60,785 nucleotides of DNA from a virus. The stretch is from positions 1 to 60,785 of the IMG/VR virus record IMGVR_UViG_3300010885_005045, one strand, 5' to 3'. Below the pieces are notes generated by a model. The model was not told where the DNA came from, made no database searches, and saw only the letters and a list, made by a program, of their open reading frames with translations. The position numbers and the translations under genes were made by a program. Shown piece by piece: positions 1,973 through 46,590 of this stretch (within the stretch, counting starts at the first letter, position 1; every line of letters begins with the position of its first letter).

Positions 1973-2023
1973 TGATTAATTTTATCTTTTACTCTGTCTG
2001 CGAATTTTTATCCGCTGATTAGT

Positions 2024-2034
2024 AGGAGGTGATC
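2024..2034 (+). promoter_or_regulatory. Orphan extended Shine-Dalgarno sequence
   Basis: AGGAGGTGATC is fully complementary over 11 bases to the 3' end of typical bacterial 16S rRNA. No ATG, GTG or TTG follows at a usable distance: the only GTG lies inside the element, and the next gene starts at 2103 with its own AAAGGAGG. It lies 52 nt after the capsid stop and just before the terminator. Confidence 0.5.
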
Positions 2035-2042
2035 GTTTATCT

Positions 2043-2080
2043 ACCCCCGGCTCCCTTAAGTGGGAGCCGGTGGGTTTTTT
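2043..2080 (+). terminator. Rho-independent terminator after the capsid gene
   Basis: The GC-rich stem CCGGCTCCC/GGGAGCCGG, with loop TTAAG and additional flanking pairs, is followed by TTTTTT. The position after the capsid gene matches the T7 T-phi terminator, which limits transcription into the tail genes. Confidence 0.88.
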
Positions 2081-20424: not shown

Positions 20425-23400
20425 ATGATTGATTATGTAAACAACTTTCCTATAGTACCGGAGTCACCAGCGGAGACACCAAGGCTTAGTCTTAAAACTT
20501 ATACAAGTGATGTACAGTTTCTTATGGGAATGCAAGGTGATCTTAATATTCCCGATGTCTCTAAAAAACTAGACCCTAATGCATGGGTTTTAACTTATCC
20601 TAATGAAGTAGTAGAACGAGATACCTTTAATGAGTATCTTGCTAATACCAACTTGTTGTCTTCCTTACAAGGAGGACAGCAAGGTATTGTTAATAAGATG
20701 GCAGAATGGTTTGGGTTTGGACCTAATGAGTTTCAAGACTATTCAAAAGGAGCAGCAATGCGAGCTGCTATTATGGGTAGAAATCCTTTAGCTGTAGTTA
20801 AGTATGGCGATAGTGATTTAACTCCAGAGAAGCTTGATAAGGCTAGAGGTCTAGTTAAACTCTTAGCACCTATTGCAAATCAAGAAGAACAAAACCCAAA
20901 TGTTTTAACTCCAACTCAACAGCGATTACAAAAAGCTGAAGAGCTTTTGCAATATGGATTAGCTAGAAAAACAGTTAAAGAAAGATTGGGTTTCTCAACC
21001 AAAGAAGGTTTGCTTTCTCAGTCTACTTTATATAGTCTTTTTTTAGGTAAGAGTGATTTAGATATAGCTAGAGGTGTTGATGACATCCTTGCTATTCGTA
21101 ATAAAGTTGATCCGTCATTTGATCCTGAGTTGTGGTGGGATGCTTTAGATCCACGAGTTAAACAAGGTTTTATAGAAAATAATATATCACCTAATTTAAT
21201 TTATACCGCAACAAACGAAGATGAAGCTAACTATAGAATTAATGAAGTCTTAGTTAAAAATAATGTTCAACAAAGAATTGAACAATATAAACCACAATGG
21301 GTTGATACTGGTAGATTACTAGTTGATAACTTAGTTGGTGGTGTTATCAATTCTCCGGATAGTATTCCATTTGCCGCTTTAGAATTAGGTGCAGCAGCTG
21401 CAACATTTGGTATTAGTTTGATACCATCTATTGCTGTTTCAACCGCAACTACAGCAACCACAGGTCTAACTACTTTTAGAGTAGCTCGAAATGTGGTTGA
21501 AACAATTGCCAAGCTTCCTTTAGGTATGGCTCCATCCTATGCTAAGAACTTAGGAATGTTAAACTCTGCAGTAATGACAGGTGCTATCTTTGGTGTAGGT
21601 AATGCCCTACAAGAAACTGCCCGACAGAACAAGCTGATTGCTTATAGTGCAGCCCTTAACTATGCCGATCCAGAAAGTCAGAAAGACTATGATATTGCAA
21701 GCATTGCTTGGGCTGGTGGCGAAGGCTTTGCACTTGGTGGAGTTGGTTTTGGTTTACTACCTACAGTTATTGGTAGTACTGCTGGAGCTTTTCTAAACAG
21801 ACTTAAGGGTGTTAATGTTGCCCCTGTTGGGGATGCTGTAGTTCGTATGAGTACAGACAAACGCTTTACTTATGAAGGCACACGCCTTGGGGAAACCATA
21901 GGTTACTTTAATAAGAAGTTAACTCGTAAAGAAGTGGTTGTAGACTTGCCAGTACCAGAAAAGGTTATTACTGAATCTATCCTAGAGGGCGTAGAGCCGA
22001 CTCCTGAGCGCATCCAAGCAGAGACTACCACAGCTAGAGATCGTACCGATGCTCGTGCTGCAGTGACTCCTGAGGCTGCTACAGCAACCCCTGATGTCCC
22101 TATGACCAGACGCTTGGACAATGAAACCAGACAAGCCTATGCCGAACGCACAGGTACTAATGGTACTCTGAGTAACATCATTGAGTTTGTTACAGAGTTG
22201 TCTCGTAAGAACTCAGCTGGTGACGCAGTTGAGGAACGCGCTTCCCTTACTGGGAAGGGTGAAACCTTTGGTGACATGGGAACCACAGATAGACTACGGA
22301 TTCTACATGCAGCCGAAGAGCATCTGGTTACTACCAGACGCAAGGAAAAAGAAGCAGGTCTATTAACCCCCGCTCGTGATAAGATCTATGCCACTATGGA
22401 AACACAGCGGCGAGCTATGATTAAAAACTATACCAAGTCTTTGTCTAAGCCAGAGCGTAAGGCTCTTAGTGAAAGTCTTGGTGGTGTTAAAGGACCTCGT
22501 AAAACTATTACTGAACATGTTGCCGATGCTAGATCTACTGTGGTTACCGCAGCAGCCAAGAATGAATCAGCTGAAAAAGCTGCAGTTAGTTTGTTGGAAA
22601 CAGCACGAGAGATCGTAGCCAACCCATCAAAGAAAGCTGAACTTACTGCTGATCTACCAAAGGAAGTTTTAGATATTGTTGATAGTACAGTTACTGAACT
22701 TGCACTAACCAACACTGTCAGCGACAGTACCGTAGATGCTATCAAGGCAAACATTTCGGGAGAAGCATATACTCCAGTCAATAGACTCCATGAAGATATT
22801 AAAAAATCTTTAAGTCTAAAACGACTAGATCCAAAACGAACGGCTCTTATTGCCAAACTTAGAGAAGATGTTTCTCTATTCGTTTCTTTGGTCACAGGTA
22901 ATAAGGAACATGCTCAACGATTCTTTGACTTCACAGAAGAACTTGTAGCTAAGAATATTATTACTAAGACTGATAGAGAGTTGCTTTTAGCTTCTGTTGT
23001 TCATCTTAACTTTGATTCTAAAGCCTTTGATATTAAATATAGTGTCGAAGCTTTTGTTAGCAAAGATGGAAAACCACAGGGTACTCGCCTTGCAGACTTT
23101 GACACTAAGAAGAAAATAGTTAGAATCAATTCTACTTCAGATGACAAGTCATCCAATATGCGAACACTTGCTGTCCTCCATGAGTTAGGGCATGCATACT
23201 TCCAAGCTGCAGCCACTGGTGATATTTATCTCAACGCTTTAAAGTTATACAACAATCTGATTAAAGATTCTAAAGCATCAACGCTTCTTAACATTAATGT
23301 TGCAACCCTAGCAGATCCTCTGCTGGCATCGGGATACCTTACCTCGTATCATTTACAGAACATGGAAGAAACATTTGTTAATACTTTCTCACTTGTTTTG

Positions 23401-26400
23401 TTTACCGAAGCAGAAACATATTCTGTTATTGCAGCTCTCAAGCCTGTAGAAGTTTCTCTATTTAAGAGAGTGCTTAAGGATTTAAAGGAAAGTATTATTT
23501 TTGCTGCTAGTGTCTTTAACTCTTCAGATCATTACACGGTAGCTAGTGCCTTAATCAAAAAAATTACAGAGCTAGACACCGCAGCTAATGATGCTATCTC
23601 AGTTCCAGACTTGGTATCGGCAATGACTACAGCTCTTAAGCAAAATAAGTTTAAGAGAGATCTTGCTCCTTCTCTGTCTGTCGTTCAGACGGATAAGGGA
23701 ACAAGAATTAGTAACTCTATCTCAATGGTTGAGGCTTCACTCAATGATCAATTTGGTGCCGTTGTTGGTAAACTACTTGGTCGTGGAGAGAATAAACTTG
23801 CTGGTGGTTTAGTTATTGCTAGTAATGCTAGTGACTTAGCTACCAAGTTTAAAGAAAAAACCGGACGAGATCTAGATGAAGATACTCTTGATAGTATTAA
23901 AGCAGATAAGATTAAAGCTGAAGGTACAGCAAGAGCATGGATGATCTTTGCTGAAAATAAAAAACTTGTTAACTTTACACAGATTAGATCTGTTGCAGAT
24001 GCTAGAGTTCAAGCTCAAGCTCACTATGAAAAATTAATAAGCACAGTACCAGCATTTGATCCTGATGCTTACATTAATTCTATTACAGATCTTGAACTTG
24101 AAAACTTACCACTAACAGTTAGAACTTCTGTTGCTGAATATCGTAAAGGTAATAAAGACGCAGCTCTAGTTAATTTGTTAGAAGATGTTACTGTTGCTCG
24201 ACAAAATAGTATTGATAGGTGGAAAGAAGGATTAGAAGTAACTAATCCCACCTTTGCTGCTGATCCTTTCTTTAGAGATTATGTGGTTACTACAGTCATG
24301 GCGCAGTTTAAAACAGACTCAGCTAACACAGGATTACCTTTTAATAAAGCAGCATTAGATCTTGTCTATGCAGAAATACAATCTGGTTTAGCTCCAAGAT
24401 TTGATGTTACCTATCGTAAAGCATTACTTAAACTTACAGAAGATTTAGTTGAAATTGGTGATGCTGATAATGGTTGGCGCAGAATTCCTATGTCAGATGT
24501 AGCTGATCCAGATTTTGACTTAAGAGTTAATCAACTACAAAGTTGTAGTGCTTCAGGCTGGTGTACACAAGATTATATGGCAGCTCCTTATATTCAAGGA
24601 GGTGACTTCTGGACTTACATACATAAGGGTAAACCAACTGTTGCTGTTAGATTAGAAAACAATAATTATAATGTCGGAGAAATGCAAGGATTAGCTAATA
24701 ATGGTTCTGTACCTATAGAACATGTAGATAAAATTAATCTTTTAATTAACTCTGGTAAATTACCTACATTAGATGCAACTCAAATAAAAGCAATGCAACG
24801 CGCAAATGAAGTAGCAATAGCAGAAGCTGCTATTAAAACTGCAGGAGGCGTTCAATTTAAACCAACAGCTACACATACTCAAGGTCGTTCGGGAACACCG
24901 ACAGCTGTTAAGCAATTAGAAATATTTGCTGGAACATATGCTCAAACTGCTATTAAATGTTATAGAATGCCTGATGGTTCTGTAACATTAATTGGAGATG
25001 GTTATTTACAACTAGGAGATGATCTAGTTTCTGAGTTACTAAATGTAACTGAACTTATTGGTAACTTTACTATAGGAACAGAAGAAAGAGTTAGGGGAAC
25101 TGTTAGAAAAGTTAATCGTTTACCTAACTTGCGTAAAATAACAGGCAAACTTCATATAAATGAAGATGTTGATTTACCTGGATTAAAGACTGTAACTGAT
25201 GGAATTCAAGTAAACAACTATGACATAAAAATTAATATTGATAATTTAGAAAGTTTGCAAGGAGGACTAGAGTTTCTTGAGTATCGCGTAAATGTAAAGT
25301 ATGGTACTAGACCTGTTGTGAGCATGAAAAATTTAAAACTTATTGAAGGTGCAGTTGATCTTATAACTAATAATAATATTAAAGTTATTATGCCAGCTCT
25401 AAAAAAAATTGATGGCAAGTTTACAGTAGCTACACTGGGAACATACATAGTTTGGCAACCCAACAATAGACTGACCTTTGAAAGTTTGACAGAAGTAACA
25501 GAACAAATAACAATTAGTAGTGTTAATCTCCCCGCCCTTATTGATCATGATGGTCTATTGCACTTACAAGAAAATTGTAGTCTACCTAATCTTATTGGAG
25601 TTGATGATCTTAGACTTTATGCAAAAACAGAAGCAGATACACTTCCTAGTTTAAAAACAATATATGATAAATTTGATTATCTAACAGATGTTTTTTTACC
25701 CCAATTAGAAACAATTGGTGGTGATGTAGTTGCATTTACACACTCAGATGCTAGTTTAGATTTACCTAATTTAACTTCTATAGGTGGATCTATTGACTTT
25801 AATAATATGGGTTCTGCATACACTGTATACAAGCTTCCTCGTTTAAGTCGTGTGGATGGAGTAGTAACAATAAATACAGACAAAGCAGAACTACCATCTT
25901 TATATTCGGTAGGTTATTTAAATGTTAAACATACTTCTACAATAGGTGATAGTTTTATTAATGGTTATCGCCAGTCAGGTGCTCCAGTTATAACTTTGCC
26001 TAGTTTAGTAAAAGTGTTTAAGAATTGTACTTTTGAAACACCTGTTTCTGCTCCTATTTTAAAAAGAGTTGATGGCTCTTTATTTATAACTAGTAAGTGT
26101 TTAGCCCCTAAGTTAGAAATTGTTAATGGCGATGTTACTATAAAAGGTAAAGTAGATCTTTCAAGTTTAAGATTAGTTGGAAAAAATCTGCATAATTTTA
26201 ATATAGACACTTCTTTATATGCTTTACGAGAAGTTCGAGGAAATTTATACCTTGGTCCTGACCACAAACTTAATAAGTTTCCAGGAATTAGCGATGGTCT
26301 AAAAGTTGGGGGTGATGTTCTTATATCTAAATATACTATAGATAAACAAGGTGTAAGCGCATGGGATTATATGATGGTTGAAGTTGCCACTGATAAACTA

Positions 26401-29400
26401 TTGGGTTTTAGAGGTATTGAAAATAGAGCTGACTTAGGCGATAGCTTTATACGCTATTCTGCTAATGGCGAAGTAGCTGGACTCTATGATCCTAAGTCTG
26501 GTTTAATGTTTCTTGTTGCCTCAGCTCTTACTGATGGCACTGCCCCATCTGTATTAGCGCATGAAGTAATGCACGGTGTTGCAACCAAAGCAATGGAAGC
26601 CAGAGCCTTAGATCTTGTTAACAGTCGTGCTGATACTACTGCAACGCCTGAGTTCCAAAGTTTTATGGCTAAGGTATATGATCGAATGGCTAAAGCAAAT
26701 GTTACTGATAACCCAGCTGAAGCTATTGGTTATATCGTAGAAGAGGCAATGTTAGCGGGTCGTATCAATGGCTTTAGTGTTATTGATAATACCTTCATTG
26801 CTAAGATTGTAGATCTCTTTGGTGAAAAGATTGGTAGTATAATCCGAGATGTGGTTGCTTCTGTTCGTGCTCGTCTATATAAAAATGGAATGAACATGAC
26901 ACTCTCTGTTGATGATATGTTAGCATTTGCTAAAAATGGTTTACATACATTGGCAGACGGTGAGGCAACTCCGGTTAAGGATACTACTGTCAAGGCTTCT
27001 ACGATTGCTAATGACAATGAGAGTATTAATAACTTTAACAACACTGTAACACAGTGGTTGAAATCTAATACATCTCAAGCCCAGCCCAATATAAATCCAA
27101 AGAACTTTAGATTTAGTCAGGGCGAAGTTGATCTTATTAGCAATGGCTTAGGTGATCCTTCTATGATTATTGCAATGGCTATAGTTAAGAGTAGCGGTAA
27201 TGAGGTCATCAACTCTGATGGCAAACTTACTGTTCACATGAAAACTTTAGTTGATGCTTATAATTCCCATAAGCAAGCTCAGTTTAATTCAATGCTAGTT
27301 AAAGTTACATGGCTATTAACAACGCAAGAATTTAAACAGATGGCTGGAATGAATCTAAAGGAAAGACAAACCTTTATTGAAACCAAATTGTTTAATGCTA
27401 AAAAGTTTAAGACCGGAGCCACAGAGAAAACTCTACTACCAGCAACCTACCAAGAGCGCGACATAGCAGATGTTTATAATGTGAGTTACTGGGGAACAAC
27501 CGCAGATAGTTTAATCAACTTGCTTGAGAGTGGTTTAGAAACTCAAACCAGTAGTGCAACTAAAGCTAAGAATAAATTAAAGACACCAACAGATGTTTTA
27601 AGTGTGGGTGATATTAATACTTTGCTTGCTGATGTACATGGTAATAAGTTCTTAACAGCTACTCTTATTGAGACTCTTCGGGAGCATCTTAACAACAATG
27701 GTTTAAGTGATATTGCAGAGCTTGTTGTTATGCAACACCACAAAGCTTATATCAAATCACTACAATCACAAGGTGTGTTTAATATTGAAGAACCAACTTG
27801 GTCTTCTCAAAACATTGCTTTAGATTCTATCAGTGCATTCTTGTCTGATAAAAATAGTACGCATCTTGCTTTACCTATCTTAAATAAAAACATTGATCCC
27901 GTACTCATTAAAAAATTGAGTGAGCGTCCCAACATGACTCCTGAAAAGGTACTAGTTGGTATTCACAAAATGATTAAAGATGGGTCAATTGTTTTAAATG
28001 AGATTACTGGTAAGTGGGAAATTCCGCGTAAGAAGATAGCTGTTGCAGTGACTGATGCTGCTACAACTGATGCAATTGCGGATGGTAGTCAAGTCCTTAC
28101 TTTAGAAAATCTTAATGATATTGCTGCTAAACTGTTTACAAAGAAATTGATTACAGATGCACAAGCTAGTATTATTTTTGAGAAACTAGATTATGTTCAT
28201 AGCAAGATTAAAGATGGTACATTAACTACGGAGAATGGTCTTATTCGTCTTGCAGCAACTATGGCTAGAAACGAATTATTGGATGAAGTTCGTAGTAGAG
28301 ATGGTACTACTGAAGATTTAGTAACCAAAACAGGAACTGAAAAAGACCGTAAAAAAGGTCCTTCACTAGTTGATTTACGATCTGGTAAGCTTAAGAAAAC
28401 AACACTTAAGGAATTTAAAAAAACAAGATACCACGCTGCTATAATATGGAATAACTTATCAAACAACGCTTTATTTACAGAAGAAGAAGTTTCATTAGTT
28501 AGAGGTTTATTAGCGTTTGAATCTGATGAAGCATTAGCAAAAAACTCAGAAGAGTTTCTTGGTAAGAAAAAAAGTGCAAGCACTATTGGTAGTGATCGAA
28601 GAGCACTTATAGAAAAGTTTGATAGTATTGGTAAAGCTATTAACTATAGCCCAGATGATACACCCCAATCTATCCAACTTAAACTTGCAAGGTATATTAA
28701 AACTTTAGATAATGTAATTACAGAAACTACAACTAAGCCGATGAAAACAACGGAAGTTGTGGCTGACATTGCTAAAACACCAGTAACACCAACAGTGCCT
28801 AACCCAGTTGATACTGGAAGTAGGCTGCTGGAAAAACAAGCATTAGCTGCTAAGCTTGTTAATAAAAATCCAGATCCTGTTATTACACCAAGTACAAAGG
28901 TAGACGAAGGAACTTTGTTTAGAGCTACTTCGGAAACTACTGGTGGTAAACCAGAAGCAGTACTACGACCAGAGAAACAAGTGGATGCTATCATTGAAAA
29001 CAGTGAAGTGTCAACTAAAGAAGCTGTGTCGTTTGTTCCTAAGAAGCCACTGACAATGACCATGACCTCTGCTGAGTTTATGGCTAACCCAGTTAAGATG
29101 GCATCTACTATGAAGGTTGCAGATAGAATGGGCGTTGATGCTCTTGTCTTCTCAGATGGTGTAGTAATGCCTATCAAGAAAGATGCTCCAGTAGTTATTG
29201 GTAAAGTTGAAACTAATGTTAAGCCCGGTGTTGAGTCTGTAACTACATTGACAGTTACTAAGGGTGTGCCAACAAAGCGTGTTAGAGAAAAAAAACCGCC
29301 TGTTAAGGCAGAACCTATTGCTGAGAAAACTGTAGAGGCAACTACCGTAACAGATGTTGCTCCACCTCCAGCTCCAGCTGTAGCCCCTGAAGAACCTATT

Positions 29401-32400
29401 GGTGTTGTTAGAGATGGCGCACCAGTTAGAGTTACTAAGACAGGTGGCATTGAAGGTCCGACTCCAGTTAAGACTGTATCAGAAGTTGTTAAGACTACTG
29501 AGACAGAAAGAATAGAGCGGATTGTAAATGATGATAAGGATCTACTTCGTGACAACGGAATGGACCAAGGGTTCTTAAAGTTATTCTTAAAGAACTATTG
29601 GACACGAATGCAGAACATAGACTTATCTCGTGATACTTATTCTCCAACCCTGCTGTCGCTGTGGACAAAGTTTGTTACAATCAACAAAGCAATTGTTGAA
29701 GCTAACAGAGCTGTCTTTGGTGATGATGGCGTAGCCAAGTTCTGGATTACAGTAGATAAGTTACGAGCTGAGAATATTAAGAAGCTTGCTACTGTTCCGG
29801 GTCACAAGTCTATGTCAGAGCGTCAACTCATGGTACTTGCTGCCAAGGAAGTTGGCGATGCTTACATGCCTCCAATCTTATTGGATGAATTGAATATTGT
29901 TAATACCGCTGAAGGTACATTTACTTTAACTGCCAAGGAAACAAAGACACCTAGAAAGAAAGTAAGTGATGCAACTAAGGATGAGTCTCCTGTACCTGTG
30001 CCACCAGAACCAACTCCAGTTCCAGCTCCTAAGGCTGGTGAGGAGGTGTCGGAAGTTATTCCACTGAAGCCAGTACAAGAGACACCAAGAGCTGATGTTG
30101 CTCCGTTGATTAAAGAAGCTACAACTAACTCCGAAGAAAACGCATCTGTTCTACTGCGTCAAAGCAGTCTCATTGGTGCAATCTTTGGTGGTAGTGAACG
30201 AGCATCTAGAAACTGGTGGAGAGCAATGAATAGTTGGATGGCTAATGCAACCCAGTCTGCTAGTAAGACAGGTCAGACAATTAGAAACCTTCAAAAGAAT
30301 ATTCGATTCTTAGCTCGGTTGTTTGAAGACAACAGAGCACAGACCGGACATTTAACTGCAGCAGGTAAGGAAGCTTTCCGAACTGCAAGACAATGTAAGT
30401 CTGATGAAGCTAGATTGATTACCCGTATTGCTAGACAACAACTCTTAGTTAATAAAAGATTAAAGGATAGCGGACTGGCTGCAGATAAGATTCGGGCTGT
30501 TGGTGTACTAAGTTATACCAAGCTTTCAGAAGGTGTTAATGTTACTCCTGCCGATCTTGTAGCTCTAGGGTTATCTCCAGAGTTATCAAAGGAAGTAGCA
30601 ACAGAGACTAATGTTCTTCTAAAAGTTTTACGACAGACCAATCAAACCATCTTAGATTTACAAGCTGACACAGGTTTAGGACATGTTTCATCTCATGATG
30701 GTACTCCACTTGATCCTATGAAGTATGCTCCGATTCAATTGAATCATGAAACCTTTGGAGCTATGAGTCCAACTGAACGGGCTACCTTTGTAGCTGCTTT
30801 GGTAAAAGCTCGTAGAGCGCGTAAGTTAAAGACACCAGTCTTAGATATCAATACACTTATTGTTCTTGGTTGGTTGGATGTTGCTCCATCAAAAGAAGCA
30901 AGAGGTACTGTCTTGTTTGCTGGAGATCGGGAATTTAGAGCAGGTGATTCAACAAACAGTTTAAGTCCTGAAACTTTAGCTGGTCTAAAAGAAGCTGAGT
31001 ATCCAATCACTATTGGTGAGCAAAAGATTCTAGAACAGTTGGCTAATAAAGCTGACTCACATAATTTCTTTATGCTTAAAGCTAATGGTGTTAGTACTCT
31101 GTATCGAATGCCTAAGGTTATAAATGATTTATCTAAAGCAGATCAACTTCGTTACGCTGAAGCTGTTGGTGGTAATAAAGCTTTGTATACTCAACGGTGG
31201 CAAGATTACCTAAAGGGTAAAGATCTTATTGAAGCTGAGATGGATGAGATGTTAGACTTCAAGACAAAGAAGGGAGCTTATAGTGAGTACAATCGAAAGA
31301 CTGGTACTAACATTGATAGACCCCTTATGCGTGTTGGTCAAGAAGAACAAAAAGCTTTAGCTATCCCCGGTATAATTCCTGAGGAAGTATTAGCTGATCC
31401 TATTATTCTTAAACACATCAGAACCAATCTTGCTGAAGCTTATAACTATTTCTTGAATGGTCGAGCATTTGAATTAATCTTCCAGAAAGAACTAGATAGA
31501 CTCCTAGGTACTCGTGGTGTCACAATGATAGACATCTTCCAACATGTGGGTGTTCAAGCAAGAGAAGATTTAGAAGCTATAGCCGTAGCTGAAAACTGGT
31601 CTAAAGGACAAACCGAAGCAAGACTATCTGATATTGATTCTGGTATGGCTAGACTTAGAGAAGAGTATATGTATAATGCAGATACACTTCCTATGCTCCC
31701 ATACCAAGATCAGTATGCTGCTCGTATTAGTTTGGCTCTAATGAAAACTAAGATTGCTCCGGGATATTTCTTTGGTGCATTGCCAGAGCTTATTATGGAA
31801 ACACTAAAGGCAAGTCCTTTAGCTATCCCTAGAACTCTGATTCAAAACTTACGGTATCTTGCTGGTGATCTTCGGTTCTCTAAGAATGCTTTAATGAATA
31901 ACTCTGAGCTTGGAGATATGATCTTTGGATTAGAAAATATTAAACATGACTTTAGTTCTCGCTTCTTAGGTGAAGTAGGACAAGGAGCATTTGAATTAGA
32001 TTCTAAACTTAAGACTAAGTTTGTTAACTCCAGTCCTAGTCAAGGTGTGATTGATACTGGTATTCATGGTCTTGAAACAGTATCTAAGGTTGCTGAGTCT
32101 ATTGGTTCGCTACAAGCTATAACCAACATGACCAGAGCAATGGCTAAGACTAGAGTACAGCGTATGCTTTATAAGCACATTAAAAAAGGTAGAATCCAAA
32201 AGCTATTGACTGCTTTAGAAGATCCTAAGTTAATGAAGATCATGCAAGACTACATGGTTGCAGCTGAGACTGATGCTGCTGCTGAGCGTAAGCTTTGGAA
32301 ACAATTCTCTACTATTGCCAGACAGTATGGCTTTGGGTTTAATCCACAAGAAGCTTTGGTCTTCTTGAAGTATGGTTTAAATTCTGTAGAGAAGATTAAA

Positions 32401-33438
32401 CATCTAGAGTATCTCATTAAGGGAACTGACCCTAAGGGTGATGGTCGAGTTAATATCCATGATATGGTTGACATGTATTGGCAAGCTAAGAACAAACCTG
32501 TAGTTGGCATTAAGCCAGAAGTACTGGAGCAAGTTATTAGTTCTTATGCCCATACCTTAGAAGATCTGGTTGTTAAAACATCTTCACCTGAACCTACGGG
32601 TTTAGGTAAGGTTACTACTATTGATTCTAAGACAGCCCTTGGTAAACTCTGGTATGCTCTTGGTTCGTATCTCCGTGGCTTCCAAGATAGTGTTATCTTA
32701 GACTACGGTAGCCGAAGTACTCTTCATTACCTCGCTGCTAACATGGTCCTCTATGGGACTATTGATACTCTCATTGGTTTATTCCGTGAGTGGATTGCTG
32801 GCAGAGAGGGTGAAGATATTGTAGAAGAGTTCTCCGAGAACCCATCTGCCTTTGCTGTCCGTGTAGCTAAGTCAGCTCCTATCTTGGGAACCTCTCAGGC
32901 TGCTCTAGAAGCAGTCCTAAGTGGCTTCAGTTACATGGCTGGTGGTACTTGGAGATCTTATGGTACCCCAATGGAATCTATTGGTATAGGGGCTGCTGCC
33001 TCTGCTGCTGAGGATATCTATCGTGGTGCTAAGGGTATTGCTGAACAAGCCACAGCTGAACAAACAGATTATACAAAGGTAGCAAAGGGAGTTGGCGATA
33101 TTGTCGCTGTTAACTCTTTGTTAAACCGTAGTCCGTTTGCTGTAGCTGCTAGATCCCTAGAAGCTTCAGGAACCTTAGAACAAAAGGGAGCACTACAGTC
33201 TTACCTAGATGCAATCCAAAGAGAACCGTATCCTTATGCTAAGCTCCAAAGGCAACAGCAAAGGAACCCTACACCGTCTGCCTTACCTCCGACACAACCC
33301 AGAAACTTTATGCTTGAGGAACAAGCCATTGAAAAGGCTAGACTCAAGCAAGCTGGGAAACCTTATAGTGGAGACATGTCAAAGGGTATAGCTGGTGTGT
33401 CAGGTTCCCTAGGGGATCTCTTAGGTAATGCCCAATAG
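20425..33438 (+). CDS. Giant 4337-residue multidomain ejection protein (T7 gp16 position)
   Basis: One uninterrupted 13-kb frame, over three times the length of T7 gp16 (1318). Visible parts in order: Gly/Ala-rich hydrophobic segments at about 313-400 and 430-460; a first zincin motif HELGH (919-923) with downstream EE (981-982); a CSASGWCT segment (1374-1381) that resembles the PcfJ-like/WCT region of phage polyvalent proteins; leucine-rich beta repeats of LPxLxxIxG type (about 1550-1955); a second zincin HEVMH (2046-2050); a sigma-70-like stretch (about 2580-2735); Pro/Ala-rich linkers (about 2978 and 3187); and a helical C-terminal third with a hydrophobic LGLFREW-like segment near 4100. 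The architecture resembles DarB-type polyvalent proteins delivered with the DNA. No lytic transglycosylase motif was found. The RBS is GAAAGGAT. The C-terminus overlaps a phage promoter. Confidence 0.8.
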   Translation: MIDYVNNFPIVPESPAETPRLSLKTYTSDVQFLMGMQGDLNIPDVSKKLDPNAWVLTYPNEVVERDTFNEYLANTNLLSSLQGGQQGIVNKMAEWFGFGPNEFQDYSKGAAMRAAIMGRNPLAVVKYGDSDLTPEKLDKARGLVKLLAPIANQEEQNPNVLTPTQQRLQKAEELLQYGLARKTVKERLGFSTKEGLLSQSTLYSLFLGKSDLDIARGVDDILAIRNKVDPSFDPELWWDALDPRVKQGFIENNISPNLIYTATNEDEANYRINEVLVKNNVQQRIEQYKPQWVDTGRLLVDNLVGGVINSPDSIPFAALELGAAAATFGISLIPSIAVSTATTATTGLTTFRVARNVVETIAKLPLGMAPSYAKNLGMLNSAVMTGAIFGVGNALQETARQNKLIAYSAALNYADPESQKDYDIASIAWAGGEGFALGGVGFGLLPTVIGSTAGAFLNRLKGVNVAPVGDAVVRMSTDKRFTYEGTRLGETIGYFNKKLTRKEVVVDLPVPEKVITESILEGVEPTPERIQAETTTARDRTDARAAVTPEAATATPDVPMTRRLDNETRQAYAERTGTNGTLSNIIEFVTELSRKNSAGDAVEERASLTGKGETFGDMGTTDRLRILHAAEEHLVTTRRKEKEAGLLTPARDKIYATMETQRRAMIKNYTKSLSKPERKALSESLGGVKGPRKTITEHVADARSTVVTAAAKNESAEKAAVSLLETAREIVANPSKKAELTADLPKEVLDIVDSTVTELALTNTVSDSTVDAIKANISGEAYTPVNRLHEDIKKSLSLKRLDPKRTALIAKLREDVSLFVSLVTGNKEHAQRFFDFTEELVAKNIITKTDRELLLASVVHLNFDSKAFDIKYSVEAFVSKDGKPQGTRLADFDTKKKIVRINSTSDDKSSNMRTLAVLHELGHAYFQAAATGDIYLNALKLYNNLIKDSKASTLLNINVATLADPLLASGYLTSYHLQNMEETFVNTFSLVLFTEAETYSVIAALKPVEVSLFKRVLKDLKESIIFAASVFNSSDHYTVASALIKKITELDTAANDAISVPDLVSAMTTALKQNKFKRDLAPSLSVVQTDKGTRISNSISMVEASLNDQFGAVVGKLLGRGENKLAGGLVIASNASDLATKFKEKTGRDLDEDTLDSIKADKIKAEGTARAWMIFAENKKLVNFTQIRSVADARVQAQAHYEKLISTVPAFDPDAYINSITDLELENLPLTVRTSVAEYRKGNKDAALVNLLEDVTVARQNSIDRWKEGLEVTNPTFAADPFFRDYVVTTVMAQFKTDSANTGLPFNKAALDLVYAEIQSGLAPRFDVTYRKALLKLTEDLVEIGDADNGWRRIPMSDVADPDFDLRVNQLQSCSASGWCTQDYMAAPYIQGGDFWTYIHKGKPTVAVRLENNNYNVGEMQGLANNGSVPIEHVDKINLLINSGKLPTLDATQIKAMQRANEVAIAEAAIKTAGGVQFKPTATHTQGRSGTPTAVKQLEIFAGTYAQTAIKCYRMPDGSVTLIGDGYLQLGDDLVSELLNVTELIGNFTIGTEERVRGTVRKVNRLPNLRKITGKLHINEDVDLPGLKTVTDGIQVNNYDIKINIDNLESLQGGLEFLEYRVNVKYGTRPVVSMKNLKLIEGAVDLITNNNIKVIMPALKKIDGKFTVATLGTYIVWQPNNRLTFESLTEVTEQITISSVNLPALIDHDGLLHLQENCSLPNLIGVDDLRLYAKTEADTLPSLKTIYDKFDYLTDVFLPQLETIGGDVVAFTHSDASLDLPNLTSIGGSIDFNNMGSAYTVYKLPRLSRVDGVVTINTDKAELPSLYSVGYLNVKHTSTIGDSFINGYRQSGAPVITLPSLVKVFKNCTFETPVSAPILKRVDGSLFITSKCLAPKLEIVNGDVTIKGKVDLSSLRLVGKNLHNFNIDTSLYALREVRGNLYLGPDHKLNKFPGISDGLKVGGDVLISKYTIDKQGVSAWDYMMVEVATDKLLGFRGIENRADLGDSFIRYSANGEVAGLYDPKSGLMFLVASALTDGTAPSVLAHEVMHGVATKAMEARALDLVNSRADTTATPEFQSFMAKVYDRMAKANVTDNPAEAIGYIVEEAMLAGRINGFSVIDNTFIAKIVDLFGEKIGSIIRDVVASVRARLYKNGMNMTLSVDDMLAFAKNGLHTLADGEATPVKDTTVKASTIANDNESINNFNNTVTQWLKSNTSQAQPNINPKNFRFSQGEVDLISNGLGDPSMIIAMAIVKSSGNEVINSDGKLTVHMKTLVDAYNSHKQAQFNSMLVKVTWLLTTQEFKQMAGMNLKERQTFIETKLFNAKKFKTGATEKTLLPATYQERDIADVYNVSYWGTTADSLINLLESGLETQTSSATKAKNKLKTPTDVLSVGDINTLLADVHGNKFLTATLIETLREHLNNNGLSDIAELVVMQHHKAYIKSLQSQGVFNIEEPTWSSQNIALDSISAFLSDKNSTHLALPILNKNIDPVLIKKLSERPNMTPEKVLVGIHKMIKDGSIVLNEITGKWEIPRKKIAVAVTDAATTDAIADGSQVLTLENLNDIAAKLFTKKLITDAQASIIFEKLDYVHSKIKDGTLTTENGLIRLAATMARNELLDEVRSRDGTTEDLVTKTGTEKDRKKGPSLVDLRSGKLKKTTLKEFKKTRYHAAIIWNNLSNNALFTEEEVSLVRGLLAFESDEALAKNSEEFLGKKKSASTIGSDRRALIEKFDSIGKAINYSPDDTPQSIQLKLARYIKTLDNVITETTTKPMKTTEVVADIAKTPVTPTVPNPVDTGSRLLEKQALAAKLVNKNPDPVITPSTKVDEGTLFRATSETTGGKPEAVLRPEKQVDAIIENSEVSTKEAVSFVPKKPLTMTMTSAEFMANPVKMASTMKVADRMGVDALVFSDGVVMPIKKDAPVVIGKVETNVKPGVESVTTLTVTKGVPTKRVREKKPPVKAEPIAEKTVEATTVTDVAPPPAPAVAPEEPIGVVRDGAPVRVTKTGGIEGPTPVKTVSEVVKTTETERIERIVNDDKDLLRDNGMDQGFLKLFLKNYWTRMQNIDLSRDTYSPTLLSLWTKFVTINKAIVEANRAVFGDDGVAKFWITVDKLRAENIKKLATVPGHKSMSERQLMVLAAKEVGDAYMPPILLDELNIVNTAEGTFTLTAKETKTPRKKVSDATKDESPVPVPPEPTPVPAPKAGEEVSEVIPLKPVQETPRADVAPLIKEATTNSEENASVLLRQSSLIGAIFGGSERASRNWWRAMNSWMANATQSASKTGQTIRNLQKNIRFLARLFEDNRAQTGHLTAAGKEAFRTARQCKSDEARLITRIARQQLLVNKRLKDSGLAADKIRAVGVLSYTKLSEGVNVTPADLVALGLSPELSKEVATETNVLLKVLRQTNQTILDLQADTGLGHVSSHDGTPLDPMKYAPIQLNHETFGAMSPTERATFVAALVKARRARKLKTPVLDINTLIVLGWLDVAPSKEARGTVLFAGDREFRAGDSTNSLSPETLAGLKEAEYPITIGEQKILEQLANKADSHNFFMLKANGVSTLYRMPKVINDLSKADQLRYAEAVGGNKALYTQRWQDYLKGKDLIEAEMDEMLDFKTKKGAYSEYNRKTGTNIDRPLMRVGQEEQKALAIPGIIPEEVLADPIILKHIRTNLAEAYNYFLNGRAFELIFQKELDRLLGTRGVTMIDIFQHVGVQAREDLEAIAVAENWSKGQTEARLSDIDSGMARLREEYMYNADTLPMLPYQDQYAARISLALMKTKIAPGYFFGALPELIMETLKASPLAIPRTLIQNLRYLAGDLRFSKNALMNNSELGDMIFGLENIKHDFSSRFLGEVGQGAFELDSKLKTKFVNSSPSQGVIDTGIHGLETVSKVAESIGSLQAITNMTRAMAKTRVQRMLYKHIKKGRIQKLLTALEDPKLMKIMQDYMVAAETDAAAERKLWKQFSTIARQYGFGFNPQEALVFLKYGLNSVEKIKHLEYLIKGTDPKGDGRVNIHDMVDMYWQAKNKPVVGIKPEVLEQVISSYAHTLEDLVVKTSSPEPTGLGKVTTIDSKTALGKLWYALGSYLRGFQDSVILDYGSRSTLHYLAANMVLYGTIDTLIGLFREWIAGREGEDIVEEFSENPSAFAVRVAKSAPILGTSQAALEAVLSGFSYMAGGTWRSYGTPMESIGIGAAASAAEDIYRGAKGIAEQATAEQTDYTKVAKGVGDIVAVNSLLNRSPFAVAARSLEASGTLEQKGALQSYLDAIQREPYPYAKLQRQQQRNPTPSALPPTQPRNFMLEEQAIEKARLKQAGKPYSGDMSKGIAGVSGSLGDLLGNAQ

Positions 33439-35238: not shown

Positions 35239-35487
35239 GGTATACCGTAGGGAAATCTACGGTATATCTTTGGTCGCTTGTATCCTCCTCAATACAAGGT
35301 AGTTGCTGACTACTAATCCGTTAAGACTCAGCAAAGGGTAGTTCCCGATACTATGCTTGTCGTAGGCATATAGAATAACTTTACATTAGGTAAGGCAGGA
35401 TATGCCTAGTGTAACCTATTCGCCCTGTCACTTTGTAACTTAAGGATAAGTTACTGGTATACCGTAGGGAAACCTATGGTATATCTT
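35239..35487 (+). repeat. Duplicated hairpin flanking a gene-free stretch
   Basis: GGTATACCGTAGGGAAATC (35239) and GGTATACCGTAGGGAAACC (35456) start two copies of a roughly 33-bp unit. Each forms ATACCGTAG / CTACGGTAT-type 9-bp stems. The second copy changes one C to T opposite G, so pairing is kept as G-U. Between them are smaller hairpins (TTGCTGA/TCAGCAA, TAACTTA-type). The gap of about 290 bp holds no gene. Confidence 0.65.
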
Positions 35488-35526
35488 TCGTATGGTTTGC
35501 TTTCTTTCTTTAACAAGGAGAATGAT

Positions 35527-38960: not shown

Positions 38961-39036
38961 AGAAGGGTGGCTGAAACGCAGTTATAGCGCACACCTTATA
39001 AGTGTGAGTATGTGGGTGCAACTCCCGCCCCTTCTA
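38961..39036 (+). tRNA. tRNA-Ile (anticodon TAT)
   Basis: A complete cloverleaf: 7-bp perfect acceptor AGAAGGG/CCCTTCT, D stem GCTG/TAGC, anticodon stem CACAC/GTGTG with loop CTTATAA, variable loop AGTAT, T stem GTGGG/CCCGC with loop TGCAACT (non-standard second base), discriminator A. No encoded CCA. Reads ATA, a codon that is rare in many bacteria. Confidence 0.85.
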
Positions 39037-39049
39037 TTAAAGGAATCAT

Positions 39050-39220
39050 ATGGCTCTACATACTATAGTAGTGTTCCCCGATGGGGAAACTTGGAATACA
39101 ATCAATGGATGTTATATGTGTGTCGTAACTGATGAGCAGTTTAATAATCTTTGTAGTGGTGTTGCATATCCCCGTGATATAGAACCATTGATTCACATTC
39201 AACTACATGAAGGAACCTAA
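39050..39220 (+). CDS. Early protein, unknown
   Basis: A 56-residue protein with RBS AAAGGA 6 nt upstream. Starts just after tRNA-Ile; stop overlaps the next start by 1 bp. Cys-containing GCYMCVVTDEQ segment. Confidence 0.52.
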   Translation: MALHTIVVFPDGETWNTINGCYMCVVTDEQFNNLCSGVAYPRDIEPLIHIQLHEGT

Positions 39221-39444
39221 TGATCTTACCCGACTTAGATGCTAATGAAACTATCTATGAGACTGCTGATCGTATGTATGATTGGCTCCGTCTTCATGGG
39301 TTTGCTGTTACTATACTTACGCCTGATGATTTAGAAGTTGAACCTAAACAAGATAAGATTAATACAGAAACAATCGAGCTTGAGATGCAAGCCGCTGGTC
39401 TTAACTACATCGAATGGATTAAGGAAGGATACTACAATGACTGA
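39220..39444 (+). CDS. Early protein, unknown (paralogue pair, first copy)
   Basis: A 74-residue acidic protein. ETADRMYDWLRLHGFAVTIL, then TPDD and AAGLNYIEWIK, aligns with AYSWIRKQGYAVAMW, TPEE and TAGYEYINEMK in the next gene. Confidence 0.6.
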   Translation: MILPDLDANETIYETADRMYDWLRLHGFAVTILTPDDLEVEPKQDKINTETIELEMQAAGLNYIEWIKEGYYND

Positions 39445-39715
39445 TGTCTTTGTGTACAATAAGGATGAAAGTATTGAAGAGAATGTATACCAAGCATACT
39501 CTTGGATTCGTAAGCAAGGGTATGCTGTTGCTATGTGGACACCTGAAGAGATGACATTGGATCCTAAGCATTACAAGGAGACTGATGGGTATGCTCAGTT
39601 CAGAGAAGACCATCTTGAAAGTGCAATGATTACTGCGGGTTATGAATATATTAATGAGATGAAGCGTGTTCTCTCTATTGATCCTAACTATGAGGAAGAT
39701 GATAATGAAGATTGA
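39437..39715 (+). CDS. Early protein, unknown (paralogue pair, second copy)
   Basis: A 92-residue acidic protein from the ATG at 39437, behind AAGGAAGGA. Recognisable paralogue of the upstream gene, with a short insertion in the middle. Confidence 0.6.
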   Translation: MTDVFVYNKDESIEENVYQAYSWIRKQGYAVAMWTPEEMTLDPKHYKETDGYAQFREDHLESAMITAGYEYINEMKRVLSIDPNYEEDDNED

Positions 39716-40133
39716 TATTGCTAAGCAATGGGTTGATGCTCTTAAGTCTGGTACTTATCAACAAGGAACAGGTAAACTACATGCCACAGATATTAATGGG
39801 ACATGTATGTACTGCTGCCTTGGTGTGCTGTGTGATCTGTATATGCAACAGAATCCTGATGAGTTAGATGTTAAGGTTGTTACTCGTAAGTCAGATGTAT
39901 TCCTTCAACACACTCAGATGTTGAGTATAGGTGATGACTCTATTACTGTCTATGATAATGATAGTCTTGTGTTACCATTGCGTGTTCGTGAATGGGCAGG
40001 TATGAGCGATGCTCTTGGACGATTCATTGATAGTGAGTCACATGGACAAGACTCTTTGGCAGAACTGAATGATCATGGTATGTCATTCGCTGCACTTGCG
40101 GATGTTATTACTGAACATGTTGATGAACTTTAA
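39705..40133 (+). CDS. Conserved phage protein of unknown function
   Basis: A 142-residue protein starting at the ATG at 39705 (behind GAGGAAGA). TCMYCCLGVLCDLYM is a recurring signature of a widespread phage family. It continues with a central LPLRVREWAGM and a C-terminal ALADVITEHV helix. Function unknown. Followed by the tRNA cluster. Confidence 0.68.
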   Translation: MKIDIAKQWVDALKSGTYQQGTGKLHATDINGTCMYCCLGVLCDLYMQQNPDELDVKVVTRKSDVFLQHTQMLSIGDDSITVYDNDSLVLPLRVREWAGMSDALGRFIDSESHGQDSLAELNDHGMSFAALADVITEHVDEL

Positions 40134-40139
40134 ACCACT

Positions 40140-40213
40140 GTCCTTGTATCTCAATTGGATAGAGGCATCGGTTTCTACCCGATAGGTTACTGGTTCGAGT
40201 CCAGTCAGGGACG
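40140..40213 (+). tRNA. tRNA-Arg (anticodon TCT)
   Basis: Acceptor GTCCTTG/CAGGGAC (one G-T), D arm TCTC/GAGG-type, anticodon stem ATCGG/CCGAT with loop TTTCTAC, variable AGGTT, T stem ACTGG/CCAGT with loop TTCGAGT, discriminator G. Reads AGA, common in the phage genes. Confidence 0.9.
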
Positions 40214-40216
40214 CTT

Positions 40217-40271
40217 TGGTAGGTGCATATACAATAGGCTTTGACCCTATCATGCTATGTATTCTACCTAT
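40217..40271 (+). ncRNA. tRNA-like remnant between tRNAs
   Basis: GTAGGT (40219-40224) pairs with ACCTAT (40266-40271) and an internal ATAGG/CCTAT stem has a 7-nt loop CTTTGAC, which would read as anticodon TTG (Gln). D and T arms are absent. It may be a decayed tRNA or a processing spacer. Confidence 0.35.
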
Positions 40272-40344
40272 GGCACGGTAGACCAATGGCAGAGTCTACA
40301 GACTTAAAATCTGTGTAGTGTGGGTTCGACTCCCACCCGTGCTA
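40272..40344 (+). tRNA. tRNA-Leu (anticodon TAA), short variable arm
   Basis: Acceptor GGCACGG/CCGTGCT, D stem of three pairs, anticodon stem ACAGA/TCTGT with loop CTTAAAA, T stem GTGGG/CCCAC with loop TTCGACT, discriminator A. The variable loop is only 5 nt (GTAGT), unlike the long arm of bacterial tRNA-Leu. The anticodon would read TTA. Confidence 0.78.
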
Positions 40345-40349
40345 CTATA

Positions 40350-40421
40350 GGGATTGTAGCTCAATGGTAGAGCAGTCGGCTTTTAACCGATTGGTTAAGA
40401 GTTCAAGTCTCTTCTGTCCCA
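40350..40421 (+). tRNA. tRNA-Lys (anticodon TTT)
   Basis: Acceptor GGGATTG/CTGTCCC (one T-T mismatch, one G-T), D arm AGCTC...GAGC, anticodon stem GTCGG/CCGAT with loop CTTTTAA, T stem AAGAG/CTCTT with loop TTCAAGT, discriminator A. Reads AAA/AAG. Confidence 0.85.
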
Positions 40422-40439
40422 CTAAGAAAGGATACTATC

Positions 40440-45352: not shown

Positions 45353-46005
45353 GTAGAGTACTAGTAATTGGAGACACTCACTTCCCTGCTGTCCTTGATG
45401 GTTACCTTCAGTTCGTGAAGGATATCAAGGCAGAGTATAAGTGTGACACCATCGTACATATCGGTGACATCGTTGACCATCATTGCATTAGCTTCCATGC
45501 TAAGCATCCGGATCATCCGGGTGCGGTGAGTGAGTACCGCAATGCAATGGAACAGATTAAGGAATGGAAGTCTACCTTTAAGAACATGGTAGTTACCATT
45601 GGTAACCATGATGAGCGTGTGCTTCGACTTGCAGGTGATGCAGGTATCCCTGACTTTTACTTGAAGACTTATAATGAGGTCTACAATACTAAGTGGTCAT
45701 GGGTAAAGAACCATACCGTTGATAGAGTCTTCTATCATCATGGTACTGGTGGCTCTAGTATGTACCCATCATTCAACACAGCCAAGGCACTTGGTATGTC
45801 TGTTGTAGCAGGGCATCATCACTCATGTGCAGGTATCAACTGGCAGGTCAGCCCTCTCAATGCTATCTTCGGTATGAATGTAGGCTGTGGTGTAGACCGC
45901 AAGCACATCGGTATGAAGTACGGTGAGAACAATATCAAGAAGCCCGTGATTAGTTGTGGTGTTGTCATTAATGGCGCACCATATTTAGAACTGATGCCAT
46001 TATGA
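45349..46005 (+). CDS. Calcineurin-like metallophosphoesterase
   Basis: A 218-residue enzyme with all family motifs in order: GDTHFP (about 8-13), HIGDIVDHH (about 37-45), TIGNHDER (about 83-90), and GHHHS near 156. These bind a dinuclear metal centre. Substrate cannot be read from sequence; nucleic-acid or cyclic-nucleotide phosphodiesters are options. GTG start, overlapping the previous stop by 4 bp. Confidence 0.88.
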   Translation: MSRVLVIGDTHFPAVLDGYLQFVKDIKAEYKCDTIVHIGDIVDHHCISFHAKHPDHPGAVSEYRNAMEQIKEWKSTFKNMVVTIGNHDERVLRLAGDAGIPDFYLKTYNEVYNTKWSWVKNHTVDRVFYHHGTGGSSMYPSFNTAKALGMSVVAGHHHSCAGINWQVSPLNAIFGMNVGCGVDRKHIGMKYGENNIKKPVISCGVVINGAPYLELMPL

Positions 46006-46571
46006 AAATAACAATTGACCTACCCTATGTAGTTGAACCACATGGTTCTATTAATCACCAAGTCTTATTAAACATGGTGATAGAAGCACATGCTAACTCA
46101 GCAAGGAATAATCCTAACGCTAGTTCAATGGCATGTCTTAATGCGAGTGGTACAACAGGACGCTTAGAGAATGCATTAGCTTCGGCTATCTTAACTCTTG
46201 GTGTCTATCATGCACCTATCTCTGAGGCTCGTCTGATGTTAATCACATCTACTAGAGATATAGTAGACATCCTCAATAGGAAGATTCCTATTGCTGGCTT
46301 TGGTAATTCCTTTTATAAGACTGGGATTGATCCGGCATGGCAAGATGTAGCAAACTATATCGAAGCCTACCATCCGTGGTATCACTTTAGAATACAAGAG
46401 ATCAAGAGTATTATTGGTCAGCAAACTCAGAAAAACATTTATCCTAATGCTGCTATGTATAGTGCAGTCTTATGTGAGATCCTAGGATTTAAGGAAGGCA
46501 CAGAGATTTCTCTGTTCATCCTCGCCCGGATCCCTACATGGACAGACATGGTGGTAAATCAAAAGACTTAA
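46002..46571 (+). CDS. Citrate-synthase-like protein lacking key catalytic residues
   Basis: A 189-residue protein matching the C-terminal half of citrate synthase by pattern: GVYHAPISEARLML (His70, at the HGGA position); IAGFGNSFYKTGIDPAW (for GFGHRVYK..DPRA), where the catalytic His is Asn102; KNIYPNAAMYSA (for LYPNVDFYSG), where the catalytic Asp is Ala151; and LFILARIPTWTDM (for FALARTVGWIAH). Full citrate synthases have about 370-430 residues, so the N-terminal half is absent. It is unlikely to make citrate. It may bind a CoA-like ligand or a host protein. The assignment is by eye; a structural comparison would decide. Confidence 0.6.
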   Translation: MKITIDLPYVVEPHGSINHQVLLNMVIEAHANSARNNPNASSMACLNASGTTGRLENALASAILTLGVYHAPISEARLMLITSTRDIVDILNRKIPIAGFGNSFYKTGIDPAWQDVANYIEAYHPWYHFRIQEIKSIIGQQTQKNIYPNAAMYSAVLCEILGFKEGTEISLFILARIPTWTDMVVNQKT

Positions 46572-46590
46572 CATTAGCCCCAATAAGCCC

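Follow-up and report, generated by a model that had tools for sequence, protein, structure and literature searches.

A decamer complementary to the 3' tail of 16S rRNA (SD2) belongs to a conserved module that, by sequence comparison, T7-like phages carry between the major capsid gene and the tail genes. The same comparison establishes the parts of the module, their order and their conservation: in nine families (A–I) a mini-ORF and its stop are followed after 0–3 nt by SD2, then after 3–5 nt by AUCUA, and then by a terminator. As regards function, the reading that we favour, tentatively and with less than even confidence, is that translation opens a hairpin and that SD2 would then keep a 30S subunit docked close to the 3' terminus of the capsid mRNA.

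Results

Gene context of the site

The window, i.e., the whole stretch of 60,785 nucleotides that was analysed, is, judged from its sequence, a contig of a T7-like phage. The major capsid protein gene (phrog_267) occupies positions 650–1972 of the + strand, with its TAA stop at 1970–1972. The first gene 3' of the terminator encodes a tail protein (phrog_446; 2103–2780, +) and has an RBS of its own, GGAGG (2093–2097, +), 5 nt 5' of its ATG. The intrinsic terminator in between, CCGGCTCCC-TTAAGT-GGGAGCCGG followed by a T-run (2043–2080, +; stem 2047–2070, T-run to 2080), stands at what we take to be the place where T7 carries T-phi. A T7-type single-subunit RNA polymerase (PF00940; 42431–44902, +) is also encoded, and bears on the coupling of transcription with translation discussed below. 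The elements of a T7-like late block, namely the capsid gene, terminator, tail genes and single-subunit polymerase, were all found in the window, along with further T7-like genes (a T7-type primase-helicase, a family A DNA polymerase and a head–tail connector). Among the relatives, terminator stems varied between spacer families, at least three unrelated stem sequences being present, and the position of SD2 5' of the terminator was kept despite this.

Other features of the window may be recorded here. The repeat CCCAATAGTTGGGGCTACTA, found at 33431, 37795 and 55051 (partial at 46588), probably serves as a promoter for the RNA polymerase that the phage encodes; a shorter form, CGACTACTAGA, lies at about 560–570, 5' of the capsid gene. 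Just 5' of the latter, the scaffold–capsid intergenic region (499–556) contains, by eye, a long inverted repeat (GAAGTCCCATGA ... TCATGGGACTTC). Two palindrome-like repeats of 36 nt (35239–35274 and 35456–35491; GGTATACCGTAGGG...CTACGGTATATC) are 92% identical. One ORF of 4337 aa spans 20425–33438, about one-fifth of the genome, and four tRNA genes, for Ile (tat), Arg (tct), Leu (taa) and Lys (ttt), lie within 38961–40422. Unusually for a phage, a 189-aa ORF (46002–46571) matches the citrate synthase C-terminal domain (PF00285; 46.7 bits, cut-off 27). When the window was compared with Rfam, only tRNAs reached the gathering score; at the capsid–tail site the best match was NsiR1, with 14.7 bits against 39.

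SD2 and its pairing with 16S rRNA

SD2 is the decamer GGAGGTGATC at 2025–2034 (+), which in the window is part of the 11-mer AGGAGGTGATC (2024–2034, +), the sole exact copy in the 60,785 bases. The reverse complement of this 11-mer corresponds to the 3' end of 16S rRNA: a 38-nt query starting AAGGAGGTGATCC matched annotated 16S rRNA in the two rows listed, and was present in 5375 of 5426 E. coli genomes. A sequence-only reading of the window had held that the match outranks every RBS present, and this was borne out, since the predicted duplex of AGGAGGTGATC with the 16S tail (−20.9 kcal/mol) was the strongest of the window scan, the runner-up (−18.8 kcal/mol) being within a gene. Its placement of the 11-mer between the capsid stop and a strong intrinsic terminator was likewise correct. 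When up to one mismatch to AGGAGGTGATC was allowed, 2 matches were found against 0.85 expected, and hence as a bare word in one genome the 11-mer is not significant. The significance of the decamer rests on its conservation in the relatives, as compared below.

No ATG, GTG or TTG occurs 3–11 nt 3' of the GGAGG of SD2, so that the claim of a missing start codon held for these triplets, and SD2 has, judged by their absence, the character of a STAB-SD, i.e., a 16S-complementary SD with no translation start. The only start-like triplet at a normal spacing from SD2 is ATC (2039–2041). It opens the conserved ATCTA (2039–2043, +), which lies 4 nt 3' of the decamer (3–5 nt in the relatives), the AUC thus being near start-codon distance. 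ATCTA was present in all 75 decamer-bearing sequences, and the next base was C in 70 and G in five. Coding from the AUC was considered and rejected, the second codon being UAC or UAG. Two other candidates were also discarded: a start at the GTG within the decamer, for the reading frame 3' of it is not kept when the N3–5 spacer varies, and stop readthrough or frameshifting out of the mini-ORF, for the frames relative to the terminator were, by eye, inconsistent across families.

The mini-ORF

That no gene lies behind the 16S match was likewise correct; a mini-ORF of 16 codons plus TAG (MINFIFYSVCEFLSAD; 1972–2022, +), however, directly precedes SD2. Its ATG overlaps the capsid stop (TAATG), and it ends 2 nt before GGAGG. 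A mini-ORF of 5–17 codons ending 0–3 nt 5' of the decamer was found in 74 of the 75 module sequences; in the remaining one (L378) it ends inside the decamer. The start takes two forms. An ATG no more than 12 nt from the capsid stop, as in the window, was seen in 57/75, and a TTG behind an SD of its own (SD1; AAGGAGG type or AAAGGGG) in 22/75, with five sequences having both and one neither.

In shuffled spacers such a mini-ORF appeared in 1–6.5% per family. It is this comparison that constitutes the actual test, as the first mini-ORF table was conditioned on a stop near the SD. The encoded peptides are unlike between families (e.g., that of the window, MIDSLSTFGFVFINRV, MFILS, MFTLS and MSLFVLQS), and a function of the peptide itself was rejected on this ground.

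Predicted masking of SD2

A long hairpin was predicted at 1974–2041 (+), in whose core an anti-SD strand (1982–1993) pairs with the SD strand (2021–2032). RNAfold gave −47.5 kcal/mol and z −8.1 for 1973–2080, terminator included, and a z of about −2.6 for the window spacer alone. In the minimum-energy folds of all 75 sequences at least five bases of the decamer were paired upstream, although the spacers diverge; this count is weak by itself, as T-rich shuffled spacers likewise pair with GGAGG. When 11 representatives were folded with the terminator excluded, each outdid the bulk of its own dinucleotide-shuffled spacers, 0 to 20 of 500 being as good. In a second set, of ten family representatives, eight gave p < 0.05, and families H and I gave p values of 0.09 and 0.08 (L001, L053 and L134 were left out by name from one fold set). 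The families were set by eye and by text patterns, and they share ancestry; the Fisher values across them (9e-7 for the ORF, 5e-8 for the fold) are therefore too optimistic, the families not being independent. Within families A–F there was one double compensatory pair, and 15 of 1120 pair cells were broken. Support for the hairpin, which is a prediction, is that unrelated spacers arrive at the same fold. By this prediction SD2 is a second SD masked by base pairing, as in a translational attenuator. A conserved switch in which SD2 pairs downstream with ATCTACCCCC was rejected, since the CCCCC partner is absent in families G, H and I.

The computed cost of opening the decamer in the ten representatives was 8.7–15.1 kcal/mol. 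When the 24 nt that follow the capsid stop were blocked, it came to 3.7–5.9 kcal/mol in eight of the ten families. Such a block mimics a ribosome and lowers the opening cost, and hence translation of the capsid gene or of the mini-ORF could expose SD2. The gating sum failed for family I (10.9 kcal/mol) and was weak for family D (8.0 kcal/mol). The net duplex of SD2 with the 16S tail was favourable in all ten representatives (−5.3 kcal/mol or better).

Conservation and distribution

With the capsid protein as anchor, 80 loci were retrieved, of which 78 were readable after the capsid stop (L040 and L079 are cut at the contig end). The decamer and ATCTA were found in 75 of these 78, the three loci without the module being L052, L054 and L055. 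When a distant capsid was used as the query in a further search, 59 loci were retrieved; after eight cut loci were dropped, 19 of the 51 readable ones had the module and 32 did not. The module is kept by a large group of bacterial viruses from lakes, and the relatives found are all metagenomic.

Among 109 distinct capsid–tail spacers, 70 had the exact GGAGGTGATC, five had GGGGGTGATC and 34 were without the decamer; since the set includes loci fetched by decamer-requiring patterns, 75/109 is not a prevalence. The 34 decamer-less spacers were at least two mismatches off and lacked ATCTA, with no intermediates, and in the three that were two mismatches off the best match to the decamer was the RBS of the tail gene. 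The GGGGGTGATC variant was confined to families H and I. It changes GGAGG to GGGGG, which pairs with the CCUCC of 16S rRNA by G-U. A role in 30S binding would fit this pattern, because the sole tolerated change in the decamer preserves the 16S pairing. The decamer and ATCTA were retained down to about 51% capsid identity, that of the window with families G and I being 51–52%. The sequence-only reading had staked its proposal on conservation in relatives, and this came out in its favour: in a spacer that changes fast, few parts are conserved as well as the decamer. Eleven viral contigs were checked over their full length: eight had a single copy of the decamer, two had two copies and one had none.

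A quick capsid tree was made from 75 rows, of which 48 had the module and 27 did not; the presence label needs five changes on it, at least four of them forced by well-supported branches, and the module is found to either side of the midpoint root. These label changes, together with the presence on both root sides, indicate that the module is probably old in this phage group and was lost or swapped several times. Three loci (L061, L378 and L384) have capsids that group on the same tree and yet carry spacers of families B, E and D, which suggests that the module is exchanged as a cassette. The contigs of L044/L064 and of L432/L436 each have, near the contig ends, two capsid genes 85–86% identical, each with the module; these would be either wrap-around assemblies of two strains or real duplications.

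In a comparison of the capsid with cultured phages, 37 records were obtained, identity being 24% where 86% of the protein was covered and at most 33% where a quarter of it was; among the matches listed from the cultured-phage collection, no capsid exceeded about 33% identity. A nucleotide search of the capsid–tail region against phages gave no match. A pattern scan of genome contigs gave three matches (an Akkermansiaceae MAG, an Arthrobacter and a Prevotellaceae MAG), with no module around any of them.

Discussion

T-phi of T7 offers a parallel to the site, since there too, in a phage with a single-subunit RNA polymerase, an intrinsic terminator separates the major capsid gene from the tail genes; we know of no masked SD or mini-ORF at T-phi. 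In its overall arrangement the module resembles the leader of a translational attenuator from which the gene is missing. The cat leader is arranged in the same manner as the erm leaders. The latter have a short leader ORF and two SDs, the second of which is masked (PMC5118997). Like the erm/cat attenuators, the module has a short leader ORF (with an SD of its own in families D, F, G, H and I) and a second SD that is predicted to be hairpin-masked. Unlike them, it has no regulated gene after SD2, where there is no start codon and the terminator comes next; moreover, the masking strand is upstream of the mini-ORF's SD in families F–I, and there is no conserved stalling peptide. In cry3A of Bacillus thuringiensis, a start-less SD binds the 30S subunit and protects the mRNA (PMC4113751). 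SD2 resembles this STAB-SD in being complementary to the 16S tail without starting translation, 30S binding being the action proposed there. The two differ in location: the STAB-SD blocks RNase J1 from a position close to the 5' end of its mRNA, whereas SD2 lies after the capsid stop and before the terminator, i.e., at the 3' end, hairpin-masked and behind a mini-ORF. Among the titles and abstract openings listed from open-licence papers, none described such a 3' element.

In the mechanism that we propose, the spacer would fold so that its upstream strand masks SD2, and ribosomes at the capsid stop or on the mini-ORF would open the hairpin. The exposed SD2 would capture a 30S subunit, either post-termination or new, and as there is no efficient start codon 3' of SD2 the subunit would be held and not launched. 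On a well-translated capsid mRNA, the ribosome-occupied 3' end might shield the message or keep ribosomes off the terminator stem. Such an action would be that of a 5' STAB-SD, placed at the 3' end and gated by translation as in an erm/cat leader. The sequence-only reading had proposed that a 30S subunit could be held at the 3' end of the message, which would protect it or titrate ribosomes, and the comparison supports this in part. The mini-ORF, the masking hairpin and ATCTA, all three absent from that reading, speak for a site gated by translation and against a sponge freely open to ribosomes; a constitutive dock is unlikely because the hairpin lowers the accessibility of SD2. A further step, that the gated dock retains 30S subunits so that translated messages are marked and protected, or so that ribosomes stay local for late synthesis, seems to us rather doubtful.

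Several points were counted against the dock. ATCTA is not accounted for by it. Within families, double compensatory changes are nearly absent from the predicted hairpin, and, taken singly, the folds of H and I fall short of significance. Several related clades on the quick capsid tree are without the module. A terminator hairpin already protects mRNA 3' ends. When RRF is depleted in E. coli and recycling fails, post-termination ribosomes appear in 3'-UTRs and are read as trapped and inactive (PMC7538156), and by analogy a parked subunit may be a cost.

The alternatives that we weighed are each unlikely, and foremost among them is that the extended SD2 drives weak initiation at the conserved AUC, giving either a peptide of a few residues whose end lies within the terminator loop or a start–stop site, the latter in families F and I, in which UAG comes straight after AUC. 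The AUC is indeed the sole invariant codon-like triplet, 8–10 nt 3' of GGAGG. In Staphylococcus aureus, extended SDs go with the AUA or AUU starts of infC, ccpN and cvfC1, and non-canonical starts give about 10% of the AUG output in poor medium, as stated in the main text of PMC13009471, where AUC itself has no occurrence. The likeness to infC, ccpN and cvfC1 lies in an SD pairing extended start-proximally with a weak codon at normal spacing; the SDs described there start real proteins, whereas the AUC here would start six codons at most. The sequence 3' of it is terminator stem, and the variation of the base after AUCUA, which yields UAC or UAG, leaves no conserved peptide. Slightly less probable is that the tail gene, on read-through transcripts, uses SD2 as a distant or standby SD, so that capsid translation would raise tail translation. 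The SD of the Sinorhizobium meliloti metA SAM-II riboswitch is likewise followed by a terminator and by a start codon about 75 nt away, being needed for AUG2, 74 nt downstream with terminator U-stretches between (PMC9373788); SD2 lies 78 nt 5' of the tail ATG, also with a terminator in between. The metA SD, however, serves a downstream gene with a poor RBS, unlike the tail gene, whose own RBS is strong, and relatives without the module show similar-looking tail RBSs.

Lower in our ranking stands an attenuator, in which ribosomes on the mini-ORF or a 30S subunit bound at SD2 overlap the 5' arm of the terminator and thereby set the read-through into the tail genes. The leader ORF and masked segment do adjoin the terminator, and from the dimensions of the ribosome a 30S subunit on SD2 would be expected to cover the lower 5' arm of the stem. 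On the other hand, the hairpin and terminator stems are not mutually exclusive in the folds, and the phage encodes a T7-type polymerase, an enzyme of a type that outruns ribosomes. Still less likely, in our estimate, is the release of a 3' sRNA (e.g., by RNase III cutting of the hairpin), whose exposed anti-16S seed might titrate 16S tails or host sRNAs, or, on read-through mRNA, a true STAB-SD near a processed 5' end of the tail message. A long paired stem, a seed-like decamer and a terminator with a U-run would suit such processing, and the cry3A STAB-SD works at a 5' end (PMC4113751); the mini-ORF and ATCTA would then be superfluous, and no Rfam family matches. The least probable of the five is that the 16S match is incidental, the decamer and ATCTA forming a site for another partner, such as the phage polymerase, a protein or packaging. 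ATCTA is co-conserved with the decamer, and we know of no ribosomal role for it; against this, all 10 decamer positions match the 16S tail, and G-U pairing accommodates the single change that is tolerated.

The holding of a 30S subunit was ranked first because the pairing would exceed what initiation needs, there is no efficient start, and the codon after AUC is not kept. Comparison of the sequences suggests, then, that the module parks or senses ribosomes where the coat-protein message ends. SD sequences are commonly regarded as 5' start signals, and this one is deeply conserved at the 3' end of that message. Its conservation there, masked and immediately behind a mini-ORF, implies that 16S pairing serves for something other than the initiation of an ordinary gene. 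The module is short and portable and can be placed after any reporter, and it would offer a natural system in which to follow the fate of ribosomes after termination.
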